Assembly (NCBI GenBank): GCA_963169235.1 | Contig: CAUJCX010000035.1 | Span: forward strand, 124,001-188,000 | Length of the DNA stretch: 64,000 nt | Source: Actinomycetota bacterium | Lineage (GTDB): Bacteria; Actinomycetota; Thermoleophilia; Miltoncostaeales; Miltoncostaeaceae | Direction of reading: 5' to 3' | Shown: positions 1,752 through 45,639 of the stretch, piece after piece | Position numbering within the stretch: the first letter of the stretch is position 1 | Layout of the letters: each line of letters begins with the position of its first letter | Made by a program: the position numbers and the translations under genes | Notes under the pieces: generated by a model | Databases searched by the model: none | What the model was told of the DNA's origin: nothing | What the model saw: only the letters and a program-made list of their open reading frames with translations

Positions 1752-2306
1752 ATGCCGACCCTCACCGTGCAGGTGCAAACGACGCTCGACGGCTACATGG
1801 CCGGACCCCAGGGCGAGATGGACTGGATGACGTTTCCCTGGAGCGACGACGTCGGCGCGTACATCGGTGACCTCATGGCCCCCGTGGACCACATCCTGCT
1901 GGGCCGCCACCTGGCGGAGGGCTTCATCCCGCACTGGGCCGCCGGGCCCGAGGGGGAGCCGCAGGAGGCCATCGACTTCATGAACGACACGCCCAAGACC
2001 GTGATGAGCCGCACGCTCACGACGTCGCCGTGGCCCGGGACGGAGGTCGCGTCCGACCTGCTCGACGCCGTGGCCGCGCTGAAAGCCCGTAACGGTGGGG
2101 GCGACGTGATCGGCTACGGCGGGGCGACGCTGGTGGCGAGCCTGCTGGCCGACGGCCTGGTGGACGACCTGCACGTGTTCGTGAACCCCACGGCCATCGG
2201 GGCGGGCCTGCCCGTCTTTCCCGCGGGGGCCGACACGCGCATGCAGACGGTCGCGGCCACGCGCTTCGCGTGCGGCATCACGGCCCTGCACCTGCAGCCG
2301 GCCTGA
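1752..2306 (+). CDS. Dihydrofolate reductase-like (RibD C-terminal domain) protein
   Basis: A 184-residue single-domain protein with the fold of DHFR/RibD-C (YyaP/YwjB type). The N-terminus reads [16 protein letters not shown], the usual strand plus substrate loop, followed by a D-x-x-LLGR segment (about 41-47) and the nucleotide-binding strand [22 protein letters not shown] near residue 115-135 (written in full here only to its GYGGATL core). These proteins usually reduce a pterin- or pyrimidine-like substrate with NADPH, but most are uncharacterised. A gagga ribosome site precedes the ATG. It stands alone, convergent with the FtsH-type gene. Confidence 0.82.
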
Positions 2307-2310
2307 GACG

Positions 2311-2329
2311 GGCGCCCCGGCGGGGCGCC
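2311..2329. terminator. Perfect hairpin between convergent genes
   Basis: Arms GGCGCCCC and GGGGCGCC (8 bp, perfect) flank a 3-base loop, directly after the DHFR-like stop and just beyond the stop of the FtsH-type gene. No U-tract is present. It can serve both strands. Confidence 0.55.
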
Positions 2330-2333
2330 GCGG

Positions 2334-4538
2334 CTACGACGTGGGGTTCTGCGTGTGGCGACGCCCCTGGAACCGGGCGATCAGCCCCGGACGCGCGGGC
2401 CGGGGGGGAGCGGGCGTGCGCCGCGCCGACGTCCGGGGGGCGAGCGCGCCGGCGGCGCGGCCGAGCGCGCGGGCCGCGGGGGTGATGAGACGCGGGGCGT
2501 GCGCCCACACCTGCCGCGTGCGGCTGGGGTAGGACGGCTCCAGGTCGACGATGGGGGGCTCGGCGGCGGGACGCGGCGTCGCGGCGACCGGGGCCGCCAC
2601 GCGGGCGCGGGCGAACTCCGGCATCCGGGGGGCGGCGGGCGCCTCGGCGCGGGCCACGTGGCCGGTGATGCGTTCGATCTCGTCCCGGTCGATCTGCTCG
2701 TTGCGCAACAGGCTCTCGGCCAGCGCGTCCAGGTGCTCGCGGTGCTCCTGCAACAGGGCCACGGCGTCGCGGTATGCGGCGTCCACCATGGACGTGATCT
2801 CGGCCTCCACCTCGTTGCGCGTGGCGTCGGACGTGGGCGAGTCGTACCCGCCGCCCATCGCGATCTGGCCGATGCGGGTGCTGAACCCGAGCTTCTCGAC
2901 GGCCTGACGGGCCATCTTGGTGGACTGCTCCAGGTCGTTCGCGGCGCCCGACGAGATGCTGCCGAAGGCGATCTGCTCGGCGGCGCGGCCGGCCATCGCC
3001 ACGATCATGCGCTCGTGCAGGCGCTGGGGTGAGGTCAGCGCGCGGTCCTCGGTGCCGTACAGCGCCAGGCCACCCGCGTCGCCGCGCGGCGCGATGGTGA
3101 CCCGCTGGGTCTTGGTGTGGGTGGGGCACAGCTCGGCGGCCAGGCAGTGGCCGGCCTCGTGCCAGGCGATCTGCTCGAGCTCGCCGGGCGCGAGCTTGCG
3201 GTCGCGCTTCTCGGGCCCGGCGATGGCGCGCAGCATGCCCTCGTCCAGGTCGGCGCGGGTGATGGAGTCGCGCCCGTCGCGGGCGGCCATGATGGCGGCC
3301 TCGTTGAGCAGGTTCGCCAGGTCGGCACCCGAGAAGCCGGCGGTGACCTTGGCGATGCCGTCGAGCGCCGCCTCGTCCTCGATCGGCTTGCCGTCGGCGT
3401 AGAGGCCCAGGATCTCGCGGCGCCCGGCCTCGGCAGGCAGCCCCACCTGCACGCGCCGGTCGAACCGGCCGGGCCGGGTGAGGGCCTGGTCCAGCATGTC
3501 AACGCGGTTGGTGGCGGCCATCACCACGACGCGCTCGCGGTCGCCGAAGCCATCCAGCTCCACCAGCAGCTGGTTCAGCGTCGCCTCGCGCTCGGAGTCG
3601 GAGCCCGAGCCGCCGCCGCCGCGCTGGCGGCCGATGGCGTCGATCTCGTCGAAGAAGATGATGGCGCCCTTCTCGGCCTTGCGCGCCTCGGTGAACAGGT
3701 CGCGCACGCGGGCGGCGCCGACGCCGACGAACGTGTCGACGAAGTCCGAGCCCGACACGGCGAAGAACGCGGTCCCGGCCTCTCCGGCGACGGCCTTGGC
3801 CAGAAGGGTCTTTCCTGTTCCGGGCGGGCCGTGGAGGATGACGCCCTTGGGCATGCGGGCACCGACGCGCGCGAACCGGTCGGGCTCCGAGAGGAACGTG
3901 ACGACCTCACTCAGTTCCTCGACGGCCTCGTCGCACCCCGCCACGTCGGCGAAACGCGACGCCGGGGTCTCGACCAGGGCGTTCTTGCGCATCTTGCCGT
4001 GGCTCGCGGCCCCGCCGTGTCCGCCGCGCGCGGGGTTGCGGCGCTGCAGGAACACGAACGCGCACACGGTGATCATCAGCGCGGCGAAGCCCAGCGGCAC
4101 GACCCACGCGGGCATCCCGCTCGCGGCGGGGGCGGCCGTCGCGGAGCCGGCGGCCAGCACGGTGACGTGGCGGGCGCGCAGCCACTCGGACAGCGTGAAC
4201 ACAGACGGCGTGGCGGCCGCGGCCGTCTGCGCGCGGGTGTCGCCGCCGAAGTCGCTGCCGCCTTCGGGCTCGGGAATGCGCGCCGCCACCACGTGGCCGG
4301 CGTCGTCCACGGCGGCCACCCAGCGGCCCGCGCTGTCCACGGTGGCGGTGTTCACGTGCCCCGACCGGGCGGCCTTCAGCACCTGCGCGTAGTCCACGAC
4401 CACCGGCGTCGCGTCGCCGCCGAACGGGGCGGTGAGCGACGACGGGACCGGGCTGGCAAGCGCCACCGACGCGAGCATGAACAGCGCGGCGAAGGGGGCG
4501 AGAACGCGACGGGCGAGCGTGGATGCGGGCATGGGCAC
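2334..4538 (-). CDS. FtsH/HflB-type membrane ATP-dependent zinc metalloprotease
   Basis: A 734-residue membrane AAA+ protease. The order is: membrane or signal segment (about 12-30), a 110-residue extracytoplasmic region unlike the compact one of housekeeping FtsH, a second membrane segment (145-164), AAA+ domain with Walker A GPPGTGKT (237-244) and Walker B IIFFDEID (293-300), then the M41 zinc protease domain with HEAGH (460-464) and a downstream NDLEQST acidic ligand region. The tail after about residue 640 is Pro/Ala/Arg-rich. It degrades membrane and regulatory proteins. Start is GTG 4538 or ATG 4532. A sigma-28-like element lies 25 bases upstream, which would be unusual for a housekeeping ftsH, so this may be a specialised second copy. 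Confidence 0.93.
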   Translation of the reverse strand: MPMPASTLARRVLAPFAALFMLASVALASPVPSSLTAPFGGDATPVVVDYAQVLKAARSGHVNTATVDSAGRWVAAVDDAGHVVAARIPEPEGGSDFGGDTRAQTAAAATPSVFTLSEWLRARHVTVLAAGSATAAPAASGMPAWVVPLGFAALMITVCAFVFLQRRNPARGGHGGAASHGKMRKNALVETPASRFADVAGCDEAVEELSEVVTFLSEPDRFARVGARMPKGVILHGPPGTGKTLLAKAVAGEAGTAFFAVSGSDFVDTFVGVGAARVRDLFTEARKAEKGAIIFFDEIDAIGRQRGGGGSGSDSEREATLNQLLVELDGFGDRERVVVMAATNRVDMLDQALTRPGRFDRRVQVGLPAEAGRREILGLYADGKPIEDEAALDGIAKVTAGFSGADLANLLNEAAIMAARDGRDSITRADLDEGMLRAIAGPEKRDRKLAPGELEQIAWHEAGHCLAAELCPTHTKTQRVTIAPRGDAGGLALYGTEDRALTSPQRLHERMIVAMAGRAAEQIAFGSISSGAANDLEQSTKMARQAVEKLGFSTRIGQIAMGGGYDSPTSDATRNEVEAEITSMVDAAYRDAVALLQEHREHLDALAESLLRNEQIDRDEIERITGHVARAEAPAAPRMPEFARARVAAPVAATPRPAAEPPIVDLEPSYPSRTRQVWAHAPRLITPAARALGRAAGALAPRTSARRTPAPPRPARPGLIARFQGRRHTQNPTS

Positions 4539-4562: not shown

Positions 4563-4589
4563 GTATCGGCGGGGGCGAAGCGATAGTGA
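4563..4589 (-). promoter_or_regulatory. Sigma-28/WhiG-like promoter of the FtsH-type gene
   Basis: Read on the minus strand: TCAC (4589-4586), exactly 15 bases, GCCGATAC (4570-4563). The consensus for sigma-28-family promoters is TAAA-N15-GCCGATAA. The same arrangement precedes four genes at 39.6-45.6 kb. The -35 differs from consensus at its second base in all intact copies, which suggests a lineage-specific preference. Confidence 0.6.
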
Positions 4590-37962: not shown

Positions 37963-39621
37963 TCAGCGGATGACGCGAGGCTCGACGAAGACCTTGAGGC
38001 TCTTGTCGGGTCGCTGCAGCACCAGGTGCAGCGTGCTGCCCTTCGGCGGGGTCTTCGCGAACCGCAGCGTGATGCGGGTGGTCGGCAGCACGGCCGCCTT
38101 GCCGTTGCGGACGGCGGCGCCCCACATGCGGCGCGTCAGCACGCGGGTGCCCAGGCGGCTACCCCGGGCAATCGGGATGCGCTTTCCGGCCACCGTCTGG
38201 GCGAAGGCGACGACGCGGCCGGCTTCGCGCCCCTTGATGGTGAACGACAGCGTGGTGATCTTGGCGCCGACCGTCAGTTTCGGCAGCGCGGTGAACGCGC
38301 CCGCGGGTCGCGAGGCCGCGGCGGGCCCCGGAACCGGCGTCGGTGACGAAGCGGGGGCGGGGGACTCGGACGTGGACGGGGCCGTCACCGTGACCGCCGC
38401 GCTCGTCGCGGTGTTGACGACCCCGGGGAATGCCGACGGGTACGTCCCCTCGGCGGTGCAGGTGAGGGCCTGGCCCCCATCGGCCGCGGTCGCGACGTAC
38501 GTCGCACTGGTTGCGCCGGGGATGAGGGTGCCCGCCCGGCTCCAGGTGTAGGTCAGGGTGGGCGTGATGCCCGCCCACGGCGACGTGGTGGGGGCGCACG
38601 TCAGGGTCGCGCCCACCGTCGGAGTGCCGGTGACGGTCGCGACCGTCAGAAAGCGCCCCACACCGGTGTTCGTGCGGACGATCTTGTTCGACGCCTGTCC
38701 GACGAACCACACGTTGCCGTCGCTGCCGACCGCGATGCCGAACGGCTTGCTCCCGCCGGTCGGGGGTGCGTACTCCGTGGAGACGCCACTGGTCGTGATC
38801 TGCCCGACCTTGCCGGACGTCCAGTTGGTGTACCACATGGTCCCGTCGGGGCCCGCGGTGAGGCCCCACGTGCTCCCGGCCGCCACCGGGTAGTTGGTCA
38901 CTGCCCCGGCGGGTGTGACCTTGCCGACAGTGCTGCCCCTGGGCCCGGTGAACCACACGTTGCCGTCTGCGCCGAGGGCCGGCGCGAACGTCCGCGACGA
39001 CGTGCTGAACGCCGTGACGGCTCCGGAGGGGGTGATGGACCCGATCTGGGCGCCAACGAAGTCGTCGCCGAACCACATGTTGCCGTCGGCACCGGGCGCA
39101 ATGCCCTGCGGCGTCATGCTCGTCAGCACGTGTTCGGTGATGACTCCCGCCGTCGTGATCCGCCCGACCCCGTGGGTGTCGTCCCCCTCGCCAAACCGAG
39201 AGGTCGTGTACCAGAGATCCCCGGTGGGTCCGGCGGCGATGAAGCCCGGCAGCGAGGTCACCGCGGTGCGCGCGAACTCGGTGACGGTGCCGCTCGGCGT
39301 GATCCTTCCGATCTTGTTTCCGAGCGCCTCGGTGAACCACATGTTGCCGTCCCCCCCCGGGGCGATGCCGTACGGCTTGCTGGCCGCGGTGGGGACGGCG
39401 AACATGGTCACCACGCCGTCAGGGGTGATCTTCCCGATCTTGTTCGCATCCTGTGCGGTGAACTACATGTTGCCGTCGGCGCCCGGGGCGATCGAGATCG
39501 GCGAGGAACCGGGCGGCAGCGTGAACTCCGTGAACGTGGGCGCGGCCTGTGCGGCCGAGACGCACGCGAGGCTGCCGAGAGCGGCGACGGCGGTGAGTGT
39601 GCGGATGCGGGAGCGGTTTAC
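37963..39621 (-). pseudogene. Secreted Vgb-type propeller protein, copy 2, decaying
   Basis: The frame is continuous from the signal peptide to the C-terminal module and has the same length as copy 1 (553 codons), with seven propeller repeats, Ig-like domain and the basic C-terminal domain. Two lesions stop expression. The tryptophan of the first GNMWF core is a TAG codon (39465-39463). The position aligned with the start codon of the other copies reads GTA (39621-39619), although a GAGGA ribosome site sits eight bases upstream and a good signal peptide (LTAVAALGSLACVSAAQA) follows. An annotation program would call a 483-residue ORF from 39414, which lacks any export signal. Selenium- or pyrrolysine-type recoding is not suggested by anything nearby. 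Confidence 0.82.
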
Positions 39622-39670
39622 GGTGACGTCCTCAGAGATCGGTGGGAAAGTGCGTGGGAACGGTAGGCGC

Positions 39671-39697
39671 CTCTCGGCAGTACCGATCGAGACTTCA
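39671..39697 (-). promoter_or_regulatory. Degenerate sigma-28-like promoter of the pseudogene copy
   Basis: On the minus strand: TGAA, 15 bases, GCCGAGAG. Spacing equals that of the intact copies, but the -10 has G for T at the sixth position. It fits the decay of the gene it precedes. Confidence 0.45.
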
Positions 39698-39714
39698 GGC
39701 GCTTTTCGGTGGGG

Positions 39715-41349
39715 CTACCGCAGCGTGCGGGGCGGGACGAACACACTGAGCGTCTTGTCCGGCCGCTGGAACACCATGCGCAGCACGCTGCCCGTGGGCA
39801 GGGGCTTGGCGAACCGCAGGACGACGCGGGTGGTGGGGAGCACCGGCTTGGTGCCGTTGCGGACGGCGGCGCCCCAGTAGCGGCGCGTGGTGGTGCGGGT
39901 GCCGAGCTTGGTGCCGGCGATCACCGGGATCCGTGCGCCGGCCTTGGTCTCGACGTACGCCACCACCCGGCCCGGTTCAAGGCCCGCGACGGTGAACGCG
40001 AGGGCGGTGGGGTTGATGAGCCTCGGGGCCACCACGAACCTGCCTGCGGCGGTGGGCTGCCGGGGAGTCGACGGGGCCGGGTTCGTCGCCGGCGCGGGGG
40101 CGGTGGCCGGAGCCGGGGCGGCCGCGGCGACGGTGACGGCGGCGCTCGTCGCGGTGTTGCGCACGCCGGGGAAGACGTACGCGTCGGTGCCCGTGAACTG
40201 ACCGGTGGCCGTGCACGTGAGGGCGCTGCCGAGGTCGTCGGCCGTCGGGGTGTACGTCGCCCCGGTGGCGCCGGCGATCGTCGTGCCGGCCTTGGCCCAC
40301 GTGTACGTCACGCCCGGCGTGAGGGTGGCCCACTTCGTGGTGGCGGGGGTGCACGTGAGGGCGCTCCCCACGGCCGCGTCCCCGGTGACGGCGGCGGCCG
40401 TGAGGAACCGTCCCACGCCGGGCTCCACCCGGGCGAGGGACTCGTTGCCGAACTCTGCGGCCCAGAGGTTGCCGTCGGACCCGATGGCGATGCCGAAGAT
40501 GGCGCTCTTCGCGGGGACGTCGGTGATGACGCCCGTCGGCGTGACCATGCCGATCCTGCTGTCGTTCCCGTCCGCGAACCAGATGTTGCCGTCCGGGCCC
40601 GCGGCGACCCCCTTGACGTCGGCGCCGTGCCCGACCGAATAGGTCGTGACCGTCCCCGACGTGGTGATCTTGCCGATGTCCTCTCCGGCTGAGTACCACA
40701 GGTTGCCGTCGGGGCCCGTGGCGATGCTCTCGCTGACGGTGGTGGTGTACTCGTTCAGCACCGTCCCGGAGGTGCTGAACTTGATGATCGAGGGCGTGTT
40801 CGGTCCCGCGATCCAGAGGTTGCCGTCCGGGCCGACGGTGATGCCGGTGGGGCCCCGGCTGGTTCCCACGGAGTACTCCGTGATCACACCGCTGGTGGTG
40901 ATCCGCCCCACCTTGCTGGTGAGCTGCTCGGTGAACCACAGGTTGCCGTCCGGGCCCACCACGATGTCGCGCGGCCACGACGTCGGGGTGGGGATCGGGT
41001 ACTCCGTGATGGTCCCGTCGGGGGTGATCTTCCCGATCTTGTTGCCCTTGTACTCGGTGAACCACAGGTTGCCGTCCGGCCCCGCCACGATGGCCGAGGT
41101 CTCAGTGCTCGCCGTCGGGATGGGCCACCGGGTGACGGCGCCCGACGGGGTCATCCGCCCCACGGAGTTCGTGAACTTCTCGACGAACCACACGTTGCCG
41201 TCGGGTGCGGCGGTGACATCCTGCGGCGAGTTGCCCGGGCTGATGGGGAGCGACGTGACGGTCGGCGCGGCCTGCGCGGAGGCGGCCAGCGCGAGGCCAC
41301 CGATCGCGGAGACCGCAAGGAACGTGCGGAGACGACGACGAGACGGCAT
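39715..41349 (-). CDS. Secreted seven-bladed Vgb-type propeller protein, copy 3
   Basis: A 544-residue exported protein with the same plan as copy 1: signal peptide (about 1-28, ending ASAQA), seven GPDGNLWF-type repeats, an Ig-like domain with two Cys, a Pro/Ala linker (about 405-435) and the C-terminal domain with GRVVAYVETKAGARI and GTKLGTRTTTRRYWGA. The protein ends RTLR. ATG 41349 follows CGGAG with seven bases between. A sigma-28-like promoter lies 50 bases upstream. The repeats are closest to copy 1 in their WFTEY cores. A binding or sensing role outside the cell is more likely than catalysis. Confidence 0.8.
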   Translation of the reverse strand: MPSRRRLRTFLAVSAIGGLALAASAQAAPTVTSLPISPGNSPQDVTAAPDGNVWFVEKFTNSVGRMTPSGAVTRWPIPTASTETSAIVAGPDGNLWFTEYKGNKIGKITPDGTITEYPIPTPTSWPRDIVVGPDGNLWFTEQLTSKVGRITTSGVITEYSVGTSRGPTGITVGPDGNLWIAGPNTPSIIKFSTSGTVLNEYTTTVSESIATGPDGNLWYSAGEDIGKITTSGTVTTYSVGHGADVKGVAAGPDGNIWFADGNDSRIGMVTPTGVITDVPAKSAIFGIAIGSDGNLWAAEFGNESLARVEPGVGRFLTAAAVTGDAAVGSALTCTPATTKWATLTPGVTYTWAKAGTTIAGATGATYTPTADDLGSALTCTATGQFTGTDAYVFPGVRNTATSAAVTVAAAAPAPATAPAPATNPAPSTPRQPTAAGRFVVAPRLINPTALAFTVAGLEPGRVVAYVETKAGARIPVIAGTKLGTRTTTRRYWGAAVRNGTKPVLPTTRVVLRFAKPLPTGSVLRMVFQRPDKTLSVFVPPRTLR

Positions 41350-41398
41350 GGGCACTCCGTGAGGCGATCGCGGTGGATGCGTAACCAATGGGACGTGC

Positions 41399-41425
41399 GT
41401 ATCGGCAGGTCGGCGCCGCACTTGA
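41399..41425 (-). promoter_or_regulatory. Sigma-28/WhiG-like promoter of propeller copy 3
   Basis: On the minus strand: TCAA (41425-41422), 15 bases, GCCGATAC (41406-41399). It is the best match in the set to TAAA-N15-GCCGATAA, with one -35 and one -10 difference. Confidence 0.62.
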
Positions 41426-41495
41426 GGCGCGAGGCACGCCAGATACGTCACTCCCTGGGGCAGGTGCGATCGGGTGGACCTTTGGGGGCATTCCG

Positions 41496-41516
41496 GGGGC
41501 CGTCAGCGACGGCCCC
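41496..41516 (-). terminator. Hairpin after propeller copy 4
   Basis: Arms GGGGCCGTC and GACGGCCCC (9 bp, perfect) flank a 3-base loop ten bases beyond the stop of copy 4. It separates copy 4 from the promoter of copy 3, so the two genes are separate transcription units. Confidence 0.55.
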
Positions 41517-41525
41517 GGAGCCGGA

Positions 41526-43100
41526 TCAGCGGACGGTGCGGGGTGCGACCAGATCGACGATCGACCGATCGGGGCGCTGCAGTACCAGGTGCAGGGTGGT
41601 GCCCTTCGGCAGCCCCTGGCCGAAGCGCAGGTTCACGTTCGTGCGGGGCAGCGTGGTGGTGGGCGAGCTGCCGGGCAGGGCGCTGGCCCACATGGGCGTG
41701 GTCAGCGTGCGGCGTCCCAGGCGGCTGGACGGGGCCAGCGGGATCCGCTTGCCGGCGCGGTTCTCGACGAACGCGACGACGCGTCCCGGCTCGGTCGCCT
41801 TGACGGCGAACGCCAGGGCCGCCGCGCCGCTCGCCAGCTTCGGCGTGGCGGCGAACTGGCCGTAGACCGGGGCGGGGGCGGCGACGGTGACGGCGGCGCT
41901 CGTCGCGGAGTTGCGGGCGCCGGGGAAGAGCACCGGGTAGCGGCCGTTCACCGTGCAGGCGATGGCTGCGCCCGCGTCGCCCGGAGCGGGCGTGTATGTG
42001 GCCGCGGTCGCGCCGTCGACGGTGGCGCCGTCGCGCGTCCAGCCGTACGCGAGCGTGGGGTCCTGGCCCGCCCAGCGGACGACCTGGGGCGCACACGTGA
42101 GCGTCTCACCCACGCGCGCGGTGCCGGTGACGGCCGCGGACCGCAGGAACGCCCCGGCCTGGAGGTCCACCTTCACCAGGTTCGCGCTCATGGAGCCCAC
42201 CCACATCGTCCCGTCGTTGGCGACGAGGATGCTCTGGGGGCGGTAGGCCTGCGCAGGCAACGTGTACTCGGTGATGACACCCGCCGGGGTGATCGACCCC
42301 ATGACACCCGACTCACCGACGAACCAGACGTTGCCGTCCGGGCCCGCGGCGACCGCCCCGGGCCCCGCGTCGGCCGTCGGGATGGCGAACTCCGTCACGG
42401 CGCCGGCGGGCGTGATGCGGCCGATGTGGTTGGTGTAGGGCGCGGTGAACCAGATGTTGCCGTCGGCGCCCGCGGCGATGCCATACGTTGCGGTCGGCGT
42501 GGGGAGGGAGAACTCGGTCACGACGCCGGCGGGCGTGATGCGGCCCACCTTGTCTCCCACGTCCTCGGCGAACCAGAGGTTGCCCTCGGCGCCGAGAGCG
42601 ATGCCGTTCGTCGCGGTCCGGGCGTTGGGGAGCGGGAACTCCGTGACGGCGCCCGCGGGCGTCACGCGGCCGATGCCGGGCTTCGCCCTCTGCGCGAACC
42701 AGACGTTGCCGCCGGGACCCGCCGCCAGGGAACGCACGTCGGCGTACTCCGGGAGGGCGTACGTCGCCACGTCGCCCGCGGGCGTGATGCGGCCGACGGC
42801 GTCCGGCGACTGCCGGGAGAACCACACGTTGCCGTCGGGGCCGGAGGTCACGGCGGCCGGGGTGCCGCCGCCGGTGAACGCGCGCATGGTGGCCGTGCCG
42901 CCGGGCGTCAGCACGCCGATGCCGTCGACGCCGAGCGCGGTGAACCAGAGGTTTCCGTCGGACCCGATCGCCACGCGCCGCGTCTCGCCGGTGGTGGGCA
43001 TGGGGGCGAGGGACACCTGGGGCGCGGCGTGGGCGACGCCCGACAGCGCGACGGCGGCGATGCCGGCGACGCCGGCGATCAGGGACAGGCGAGCGCGCAT
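41526..43100 (-). CDS. Secreted seven-bladed Vgb-type propeller protein, copy 4
   Basis: A 524-residue exported protein: signal peptide (about 1-25, ending GVAHA), seven repeats (GSDGNLWF, GPDGNVWF, GPGGNVWF, GAEGNLWF, GADGNIWF, GPDGNVWF, ANDGTMWV), an Ig-like domain (LTCAPQ ... IACTVN), then the shared C-terminal module with GRVVAFVENRAGKRI. It is the most divergent of the four copies; its C-terminal module has TPMWASALPG where the others have RRYWGA. ATG 43100 has CGGAG upstream. Its own sigma-28-like promoter and a downstream hairpin make it a separate unit. Confidence 0.8.
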   Translation of the reverse strand: MRARLSLIAGVAGIAAVALSGVAHAAPQVSLAPMPTTGETRRVAIGSDGNLWFTALGVDGIGVLTPGGTATMRAFTGGGTPAAVTSGPDGNVWFSRQSPDAVGRITPAGDVATYALPEYADVRSLAAGPGGNVWFAQRAKPGIGRVTPAGAVTEFPLPNARTATNGIALGAEGNLWFAEDVGDKVGRITPAGVVTEFSLPTPTATYGIAAGADGNIWFTAPYTNHIGRITPAGAVTEFAIPTADAGPGAVAAGPDGNVWFVGESGVMGSITPAGVITEYTLPAQAYRPQSILVANDGTMWVGSMSANLVKVDLQAGAFLRSAAVTGTARVGETLTCAPQVVRWAGQDPTLAYGWTRDGATVDGATAATYTPAPGDAGAAIACTVNGRYPVLFPGARNSATSAAVTVAAPAPVYGQFAATPKLASGAAALAFAVKATEPGRVVAFVENRAGKRIPLAPSSRLGRRTLTTPMWASALPGSSPTTTLPRTNVNLRFGQGLPKGTTLHLVLQRPDRSIVDLVAPRTVR

Positions 43101-43132
43101 GGAACTCCGATCAGGAGATGCAGGGTGCCCGC

Positions 43133-43159
43133 GCATCGGCACGGGCCGTGAAGAAATGA
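43133..43159 (-). promoter_or_regulatory. Sigma-28/WhiG-like promoter of propeller copy 4
   Basis: On the minus strand: TCAT (43159-43156), 15 bases, GCCGATGC (43140-43133), 33 bases before the ATG. Confidence 0.52.
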
Positions 43160-43187
43160 ACTCCGGGGACGCGCGCCGACGCGGCCG

Positions 43188-45344
43188 TTACCTGCGTGCC
43201 CGCGGGACGCGCAGCGTGATCACCTGGCGGGCACGCGTGCCGTCGGGCCGCACCAGGTCGACGACGAGCGGGACGGCCTTGCGCGGCAGCCGCGTCCGCA
43301 CCTCCAGCCGCAGCCGCTGTGGGGCGCGGGTCACGCGCAGCGACAGCCCCTTCGAGGCCCGGCGCAGCGCGACGACGCGGCGCTTCTTCCCGGCGAACAC
43401 CACCGCCCGGCTGCCTGCCGTGAGGCGTAGCGGGCGGGCGGCGTTGCCGAACCGCAGCGTGTAGCGCCCGCGTTCGAGCGCGGTCACGGGGAGGATCGCG
43501 ACGCCCTTCGCCACCTTCAGCCTGCCGACGCGGACCAGCCGCGGTGCGGGGGCCGGAGCCACCGCTGCGACGGTCACGGTGAGGGTCGTGGTGGCGGACC
43601 CCGCGAGGTCGGTGGTGGTCACCACGTGCGTGGTCGTGCCCGCGACGGCCGGAGTCCCGGACACGACGCCGGTGGACGCGTCGATCGCGAGGCCCTGGGG
43701 CAGGGCGGGCGACACGGTGATGGTGGCGGGACCCGTGCGGCCGATGGTGGGCGTCAGCGGGGTGATGGGGGTTCCCACGGTCGCCGACACCGACGTCGTG
43801 CCGTACGCGATGCGCGCCGCGCCCCACCCGTACACGCCCCGCATGGGGTTCGTGGCGTCGCCGGCGTGCGACACGAACACGTCTGCGTGGCCGTCGCGGT
43901 TGAGGTCGGCGCCCGCGATCGCCGAGCCCGCGAAGGCCCCGGCCGCGGTGCCGTTCATCACCACGCCGGCGGTCGCCGGGAGCGACGCCAGGTCGACGTT
44001 GGTCGGCGACGACGACCCGAACACCACGTACGCACGCCCCGCATCCTTCTGGCCCGAGGGGTCCGCGAGCGGAGCGCCCACGGCGAGGTCGGCGATGCCG
44101 TCCCCGTTGACGTCACCGACGCCCGCGACGGTCCACCCGGCCATATCGTTCGCCGCCGCGCCGTCGACGTGGGTGGAGGCCGCGGCAAGAGTGCCGCTTG
44201 CGAGCGTGCGCCCACCGTGCACGACGTACGTGCGGCCCGCCTTCGTCCGGCCGGCCGGGGCGGCGTTGGTCGCCGACACCGCGACGTCGCGGGCTCCGTC
44301 GCCGTTGACGTCGCCGACGCCCGCCACGGACCAGCCGGCATTGTCGTCGCTTGACTCGCCGTCGAGGCGGACGCCGGCCGTTCCCAGCGCGCCGAGGTCC
44401 GTGTCGGCCAGCGCCCGCCCGCCGAACAGCACGTACGCGCGTCCTGCGCCGCGCGTCGGGGCGCCGATGGCAAGGTCATCGATGCCGTCGCCGTTGACGT
44501 CGCCGGTCGCGGCCACCGAGGTTCCCGTCTGGTCGCTCGCAACCGCCCCCGCGATGGCCACGCCGCGGGTCCCCAGCGCGGCACCCAGGTCCATGCCGGA
44601 CAACTGGCGTGAGCCGAACACCACGAACACGCTTCCCGCCGCGCTCCGGCCCTGCGGGGAGGCGTACGGGGACCCCACCACGACGTCGTCGATGCCGTCC
44701 GCGTTGAGGTCGCCGCCAGCCGAGACCGACGTGCTGGCGTCGTCGAACGACGCCACGCCGTCGAATCGCACCGCCCGCGCGCCAGGGTCGGCCAGATCGA
44801 CATCCGACACGGTGGCCGAGCCGAAGACCACGTGCACGCACCCCTTCACGGCGTTCCCGGACGGGTTGGCCCCGACCGACCCGACGCCGACGTCGTCGAT
44901 GCCGTCGCCGTTGACGTCGCCGACGCCCGCCACGGTCGCACCGGTGCTGTCCTTCACCGCGGCGCCGCGGATGCGGAAGCCCTGGGAGGGCGTGAGCGTC
45001 GCCACGTCCACGTTCGCGGGCGAGGACGACCCGAACAGCACGAACGCCGTGCCGGTCTGGCCCCGCGCGGGGTCCGAAAAGTACGGCAGGCCGACGATCA
45101 CGTCGTCGTAGCCGTCGCCGTTGACGTCGCCGGCGGCGCCCAGCGACATGACGTACCCGGCGTCGCCGTGCCCCGAGGCGCCGGCGAGCGTGATGTTGGC
45201 CTGGGTGAGCAGGTCGACGCTCCCCGCCTGCTGCGGCAGGGCCGCGTGGGCGGGGGACACGACGCCGCACGCCGCCAAGGCGCAGAGCGTCAGCCAGCGG
45301 CGAACCTCGGCGGGGCGGGTGGGTGAGCATGCGCGGCGTGCCAT
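43188..45344 (-). CDS. Secreted FG-GAP (integrin-alpha-like) propeller protein
   Basis: A 718-residue exported protein. The signal peptide (about 1-37, ending SPAHA) is followed by seven FG-GAP repeats, each with a calcium-binding loop such as GDVNGDGYDDVIVG or GDVNGDGIDDLAIG, plus a FVLFGSS-type strand; the last loop is ADLNRDGHADVFVS. Seven repeats make a complete seven-bladed propeller. A putative-Ig domain follows (ATITVSPALPQGLAIDASTGVVSGTPA, in part PALPQGLAIDASTG), and then a basic Arg-rich C-terminal domain. Proteins of this type bind partners or surfaces in a calcium-dependent way. ATG 45344 has CGGAG seven bases upstream. A sigma-28-like promoter lies about 270 bases upstream, giving a long leader. 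Confidence 0.85.
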   Translation of the reverse strand: MARRACSPTRPAEVRRWLTLCALAACGVVSPAHAALPQQAGSVDLLTQANITLAGASGHGDAGYVMSLGAAGDVNGDGYDDVIVGLPYFSDPARGQTGTAFVLFGSSSPANVDVATLTPSQGFRIRGAAVKDSTGATVAGVGDVNGDGIDDVGVGSVGANPSGNAVKGCVHVVFGSATVSDVDLADPGARAVRFDGVASFDDASTSVSAGGDLNADGIDDVVVGSPYASPQGRSAAGSVFVVFGSRQLSGMDLGAALGTRGVAIAGAVASDQTGTSVAATGDVNGDGIDDLAIGAPTRGAGRAYVLFGGRALADTDLGALGTAGVRLDGESSDDNAGWSVAGVGDVNGDGARDVAVSATNAAPAGRTKAGRTYVVHGGRTLASGTLAAASTHVDGAAANDMAGWTVAGVGDVNGDGIADLAVGAPLADPSGQKDAGRAYVVFGSSSPTNVDLASLPATAGVVMNGTAAGAFAGSAIAGADLNRDGHADVFVSHAGDATNPMRGVYGWGAARIAYGTTSVSATVGTPITPLTPTIGRTGPATITVSPALPQGLAIDASTGVVSGTPAVAGTTTHVVTTTDLAGSATTTLTVTVAAVAPAPAPRLVRVGRLKVAKGVAILPVTALERGRYTLRFGNAARPLRLTAGSRAVVFAGKKRRVVALRRASKGLSLRVTRAPQRLRLEVRTRLPRKAVPLVVDLVRPDGTRARQVITLRVPRARR

Positions 45345-45363
45345 CGACGATCTCCGGGTGGTG

Positions 45364-45381
45364 GGGGCATCGCGATGCCCC
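45364..45381. repeat. Perfect 18-bp palindrome in the FG-GAP gene leader
   Basis: GGGGCATCGCGATGCCCC lies 20 bases before the FG-GAP start, just upstream of its ribosome site. It could be an operator or an RNA hairpin in the leader; nothing decides between them. Confidence 0.4.
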
Positions 45382-45612
45382 GTGGGCAGGGACGAACCAA
45401 CATGGGGGGTGCACGGAGCGACCGGCCGGCGCGCCGAATCCGGCGCGGCCCTCTCGCGATATCGGCCGCAGCGGGAGATCGCATGAGGACGAGGCGTGGG
45501 GAACGCCGGGCGCACCACGTCGACGCCGTCTGTCAGGCCACGAGTGCGCGGCGACGGGTGGATGACACGCGGTCTCCCAGGCAAGACATCAGAATCAAGG
45601 AACGGGACGCGC

Positions 45613-45639
45613 CTATCGGCACGGGGTGCACAGACGTGA
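45613..45639 (-). promoter_or_regulatory. Sigma-28/WhiG-like promoter of the FG-GAP gene
   Basis: On the minus strand: TCAC (45639-45636), 15 bases, GCCGATAG (45620-45613). The -35 and first seven -10 bases are identical to those of the FtsH-type gene promoter at 4563-4589. Confidence 0.6.

Follow-up and report, generated by a model that had tools for sequence, protein, structure and literature searches.

The stretch of DNA analysed here (the window, 64,000 nucleotides, G000:C35:124001-188000, 73% GC) belongs to a genome of 2.94 Mb in 65 contigs and carries an array of genes for Vgb-type propellers (P1 to P4) and an FG-GAP repeat protein (Table 1). Judging from their sequences, the intact proteins of the array have N-termini resembling signal peptides. 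P4 lacks a separate promoter site and may be transcribed by read-through from the P3 pseudogene. A search of the named genomes with P2 returned distant Vgb-type proteins only, and the family name "virginiamycin B lyase" is no evidence of activity.

Table 1. Genes and predicted promoter sites in the window.
Feature	Position	Strand	Remarks
FtsH-type AAA/M41 protease, downstream of the 4563 site	2334..4532	(-)	Pfam PF00004, PF01434
Predicted promoter of the same type before the FtsH-type protease gene	4563..4589	(-)	TCAC-N15-GCCGATAC
P4, secreted Vgb-type propeller, 552 aa	36252..37910	(-)	Pfam PF24684; 52 nt after P3
P3, Vgb-type propeller pseudogene	37963..39630	(-)	one internal TAG; start codon absent at the expected place; 50% identity to P2
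Decayed promoter ahead of the P3 pseudogene	39671..39697	(-)	TGAA-N15-GCCGAGAG; two mismatches
P2, secreted Vgb-type propeller, 544 aa, signal peptide	39715..41349	(-)	Pfam PF24684
Predicted WhiG/sigma-28-type promoter of P2	41399..41425	(-)	TCAA-N15-GCCGATAC; about 50 nt 5' of the ATG
P1, secreted Vgb-type propeller, 524 aa, signal peptide	41526..43100	(-)	Pfam PF24684
Predicted WhiG/sigma-28-type promoter of P1	43133..43159	(-)	TCAT-N15-GCCGATGC; ATG 32 nt downstream
Secreted FG-GAP repeat protein, putative Ig domain, 718 aa, signal peptide	43188..45344	(-)	Pfam PF01839, PF13517, PF05345
Predicted WhiG/sigma-28-type promoter of the FG-GAP gene	45613..45639	(-)	TCAC-N15-GCCGATAG

The original prediction had placed sigma-28/WhiG-like promoters at five positions in the window, and all five are present on the minus strand. 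Its picture of promoter-bearing units stands for P2, P1 and the FG-GAP gene and needs correcting at P3, where a pseudogene lies behind the decayed promoter. The -10 box is exactly GCCGATA ahead of P2 and the FG-GAP gene, GCCGATG ahead of P1 (a variant also found upstream of flhB and cheA) and GCCGAGA ahead of P3. By sequence, the P2 site ranks as a very strong candidate and those of the FG-GAP gene and P1 as good ones; the P3 site, taken alone, is not significant. The promoter ahead of the protease gene is conserved in G001, a genome of the same genus. The FG-GAP leader is long, with the site about 270 nt 5' of the start codon. It contains (45345-45612, minus strand) a tiny open reading frame, MSSTRRRALVA-stop, with a possible ribosome site; this frame resembles the start of a signal peptide and is perhaps the remnant of an earlier secreted gene behind the promoter.

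Genome-wide, the exact pattern TCA-N16-GCCGATA occurs nine times against none for a reversed-pattern control, and allowing any second base in the -35 box (TNA-N16-GCCGATA) yields 14 against 1. Eight of the nine exact sites lie in non-coding DNA, in the right orientation and upstream of a gene, a placement far beyond chance (rough binomial <1e-8) because such DNA makes up only about 5% of the sampled positions. One exact site (C6:42208) has no gene downstream. In the window, 56 matches with at most two mismatches were found against 30.8 expected, a count reached by none of 100 shuffles; outside the array, a site with at most one mismatch within 150 nt was present at 1 of 140 genes, that of the FtsH-type protease.

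A position weight matrix whose training sites excluded the propeller set and lay mostly ahead of flagellar and chemotaxis genes was then scanned over 351 kb on both strands (702 kb of strand). The P2 site ranked first (27.5) and the FG-GAP site eighth (19.6); the P3 site scored 14.2. All of the top 15 sites were non-coding, correctly oriented and upstream of a gene, and background from coding regions appeared only below them. The motif is thus not randomly placed, as had been asked of it at the outset. The spacer spectrum has its main peak at 15 and a second at 16, with almost nothing at other lengths; since the sampled regions were picked by N15 sites and flagellar content, the N16 peak is less affected by bias. 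The constant 15-base spacing originally claimed therefore holds for N15 and has to be widened to 15 or 16, a spacing that fits the sigma-28/WhiG class of promoters.

Besides those in the window, exact sites stand before genes for CheW, CheY (followed by a fliO-type gene and export genes), CheR, a diguanylate cyclase and an RCC1 propeller. Less strict matches, with a spacing of 15 or 16, precede CheA, FlhB, FlgF/G, FlbD-MotA-MotB, FliK, FliJ and an MCP, as well as a further two GGDEF genes and a further two FG-GAP proteins. The GGDEF-type targets comprise one GGDEF, one GGDEF-HD and one GAF-GGDEF protein. The only flagellin-like gene detected in this genome (G000:C51) is without a clear WhiG-type site near its start.

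How firmly are the propellers tied to this motif? Two further FG-GAP relatives, picked out by protein homology independently of the motif, both carry sites (exact with N16 on C39, one mismatch on C5; null expectation about 2% each). A further Vgb homologue of this genome (on C1) lacks a site, and in other genomes no Vgb homologue has one with at most one mismatch. The expectation that the motif would also precede propeller genes in relatives was not borne out, most homologues being without it. Since P4, the C1 gene and the relatives' Vgb homologues all lack the motif, the recruitment of propellers appears to be mainly a trait of this lineage. The broader idea that the propellers of all relatives belong to the regulon was rejected for the Vgb type; for the FG-GAP type there is a weak hint of it in genus g6, whose genes show modest TCAAG...CGAT candidates.

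The sites of the array could be non-functional copies left by tandem duplication, with only the flagellar and chemotaxis sites live. P1 to P4 are paralogues, and about 12 of the 18 bases after the -10 box are common to the upstream segments of P2 and the FG-GAP gene. The spacers of P1, P2 and the FG-GAP gene, however, are for the most part dissimilar (3, 6 and 9 of 15 bases in common; 3/15 between P2 and P1, 6/15 between P2 and FG-GAP) and the boxes are kept, which favours function over mere copying. Moreover, the FG-GAP gene bears a site and is not homologous to the Vgb propellers, unlinked FG-GAP and RCC1 genes have sites too, and the only badly decayed site is that of the broken gene P3. 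Simple carry-over by duplication was judged unlikely after the spacer comparison, and we regard dead copies as an improbable account of the array.

Which sigma factor would read these sites? The sigma-28-type factor presupposed by the original prediction is encoded: a profile search of the genome gave a single strong WhiG/FliA-family sigma (G000:C8:2835-3635, 281 bits against a cut-off of 189.6). Its best PDB match is Streptomyces WhiG (278 bits; E. coli FliA, 184 bits), which places it by sequence as a flagellar-clade sigma closest to WhiG. The -10 box of the sites corresponds to the GCCGATAA of sigma-28/WhiG-type promoters. Their textbook -35 box is TAAA; here it is TCAA(G) instead, and TCAA prevails at flagellar and chemotaxis sites across the whole family. 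The predicted lineage consensus is TCAA(G)-N15/16-GCCGATA/G, and the original assignment is supported as to promoter class, with TCAA(G) in the -35 position. A perfect TAAA-N15-GCCGATAA occurs at G000:C15:58700-58725, and a principal-sigma-like (RpoD-type) gene starts about 125 nt further on.

The motif and the sigma factor occur together in the family. Across 18 family genomes with the sigma above the cut-off, TCAA-N15-GCCGATA was found at 61 sites against 2 for the control, and in four near-complete genomes without it (G009, G018, G021 and G024, all of one genus) at 1 against 1. The looser TCA-N16 pattern is less clean, with seven matches in the sigma-less G021. G009 also lacks RsiG and retains several Vgb propellers without the motif. 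A check proposed at the outset came out in favour of the prediction: the motif precedes flagellar and chemotaxis genes in relatives as well as here. With gene names read by eye from translations, it stands before flagellin, FliJ, FliM and CheA in G012 (a single contig), FlaG-FliD in G019, FlaG in G026, CheW in G001, CheY in G006, G010, G014 and G015, FlhB in G003 and G014, and FlgF/G in G014. At the orthologous CheW and CheY sites both boxes are kept and the spacer has diverged, a phylogenetic footprint.

A different sigma might read the boxes, or they might be an operator for a regulator common to motility and propeller genes. The genome has several further sigma-70 family genes, and a TCAA -35 box departs from TAAA, but the -10 box and spacing match those used by the flagellar sigma clade, of which one clear member is encoded, and the motif is essentially absent from the four near-complete genomes that lack that sigma; we give this possibility very little weight. 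That the motif arises by chance or as a side effect of GC-rich composition is scarcely credible, for two-mismatch sites such as that of P3 are common (in 14% of random 391-nt stretches) but a chance origin of the exact sites is refuted by the reversed-pattern controls, shuffles and gene-position tests, with spacing peak, target functions and co-occurrence with the sigma pointing the same way, and the early judgement that the recurring spacing is hard to explain by chance has held up.

The likely anti-sigma partner differs from that of classical flagellar systems. We found no PF04316 (FlgM) match in the genome, though a diverged FlgM could escape detection. An RsiG homologue was found (PF22802, 68 bits, G000:C35:258803-259012; L270:1492-1758), an 88-aa protein with one c-di-GMP motif, ERDVSMQRRLLHGRID, of the form E(X)3S(X)2R(X)3H(X)3D. 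Single-motif RsiG has been reported only from Rubrobacteria and Thermoleophilia, and in the known cases c-di-GMP-bound RsiG sequesters WhiG (PMC8325347). Together with the flagella, the single-motif RsiG suggests a thermoleophilian organism. Flagella are widespread among the basal classes of actinobacteria, Thermoleophilia included (PMC10746217). The gene preceding RsiG has a weak TCGC-N15-GCCGATAT site upstream.

We hold it to be highly probable that the one WhiG/FliA-clade sigma of this genome reads the sites as promoters, shared by motility and propeller genes, with gating by RsiG and c-di-GMP. The sigma would recognise TCAA(G)-N15/16-GCCGATA in this lineage and transcribe late flagellar, stator and chemotaxis genes, several diguanylate cyclases and secreted beta-propellers (two intact Vgb-type genes, FG-GAP and RCC1). 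The best-supported part, from sequence statistics and comparison, is that one sigma transcribes propeller, flagellar, chemotaxis and c-di-GMP enzyme genes. Its anti-sigma is probably RsiG; known RsiG binds WhiG only with c-di-GMP, and falling c-di-GMP should free the sigma and open the regulon, a step suggested by homology and intact motif residues. We infer that this sigma initiates transcription at the sites in vivo, that RsiG and c-di-GMP gate it, and when the propellers are synthesised: their production probably belongs to the motile programme, itself likely held in check by c-di-GMP, and they would be exported when the cell is motile. The array had been proposed to be expressed with motility or development. 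Because the sigma is WhiG-like, RsiG is present and FlgM was not detected, motility under c-di-GMP fits better, and sporulation-type development is the poorer fit.

Among the closest known systems is that of R. radiotolerans, where a search of the same kind, followed by mapping of transcription starts, bore out 12 of 20 predicted WhiG promoters, some of them at genes for type IV pili and c-di-GMP enzymes (PMC8325347); this sets a realistic prior of more than one half for individual predicted sites, and the position and co-occurrence tests lend those described here additional support. That bacterium, likewise a unicellular actinobacterium, shares a WhiG-clade sigma, single-motif RsiG, flagellar-type promoters and several diguanylate cyclase/phosphodiesterase gene targets. 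Its remaining main targets are genes for type IV pili, whereas here they are flagellar and chemotaxis genes and secreted beta-propellers. The FliA/SigD sigma-28 regulons of E. coli and Bacillus are alike in promoter class, late flagellar and chemotaxis targets and some non-flagellar secreted targets, and differ in having FlgM as anti-sigma, where we detected RsiG and not FlgM, and in the -35 box. Streptomyces WhiG, the closest solved relative of the sigma, is in contrast a sporulation factor of a non-motile filamentous bacterium with a twin-motif RsiG. In the open literature we found no earlier case of a WhiG regulon with flagellar genes in Thermoleophilia, nor of a sigma-28 regulon that includes propellers. 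This class of promoter is known; its wiring to flagella and secreted beta-propellers in a flagellated, probably thermoleophilian actinobacterium is apparently new. It places secreted Vgb, FG-GAP and RCC1 propellers, otherwise without a known role, in a regulatory context and suggests flagella and chemotaxis as a third output of the WhiG-RsiG-c-di-GMP switch, besides sporulation and type IV pili.

The lineage-specific consensus also makes the regulon of uncultured relatives readable. Read by eye, the non-flagellar secreted targets vary by lineage. TasA/camelysin-like secreted proteins lie behind the motif in G020 and G040, from two different families of the class; G007 has a pilin and a CAP-like protein there, and G015 a collagen-like protein (by eye). 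In G010 (C136), a Vgb-type propeller gene (1824-3104, plus strand) adjoins, in convergent orientation, the WhiG/FliA sigma gene (3156-3833, minus strand). In five family genomes a small zinc-ribbon protein (MKGYxTKRIxLPGG...) follows a WhiG-type motif and is a possible core member of the regulon.
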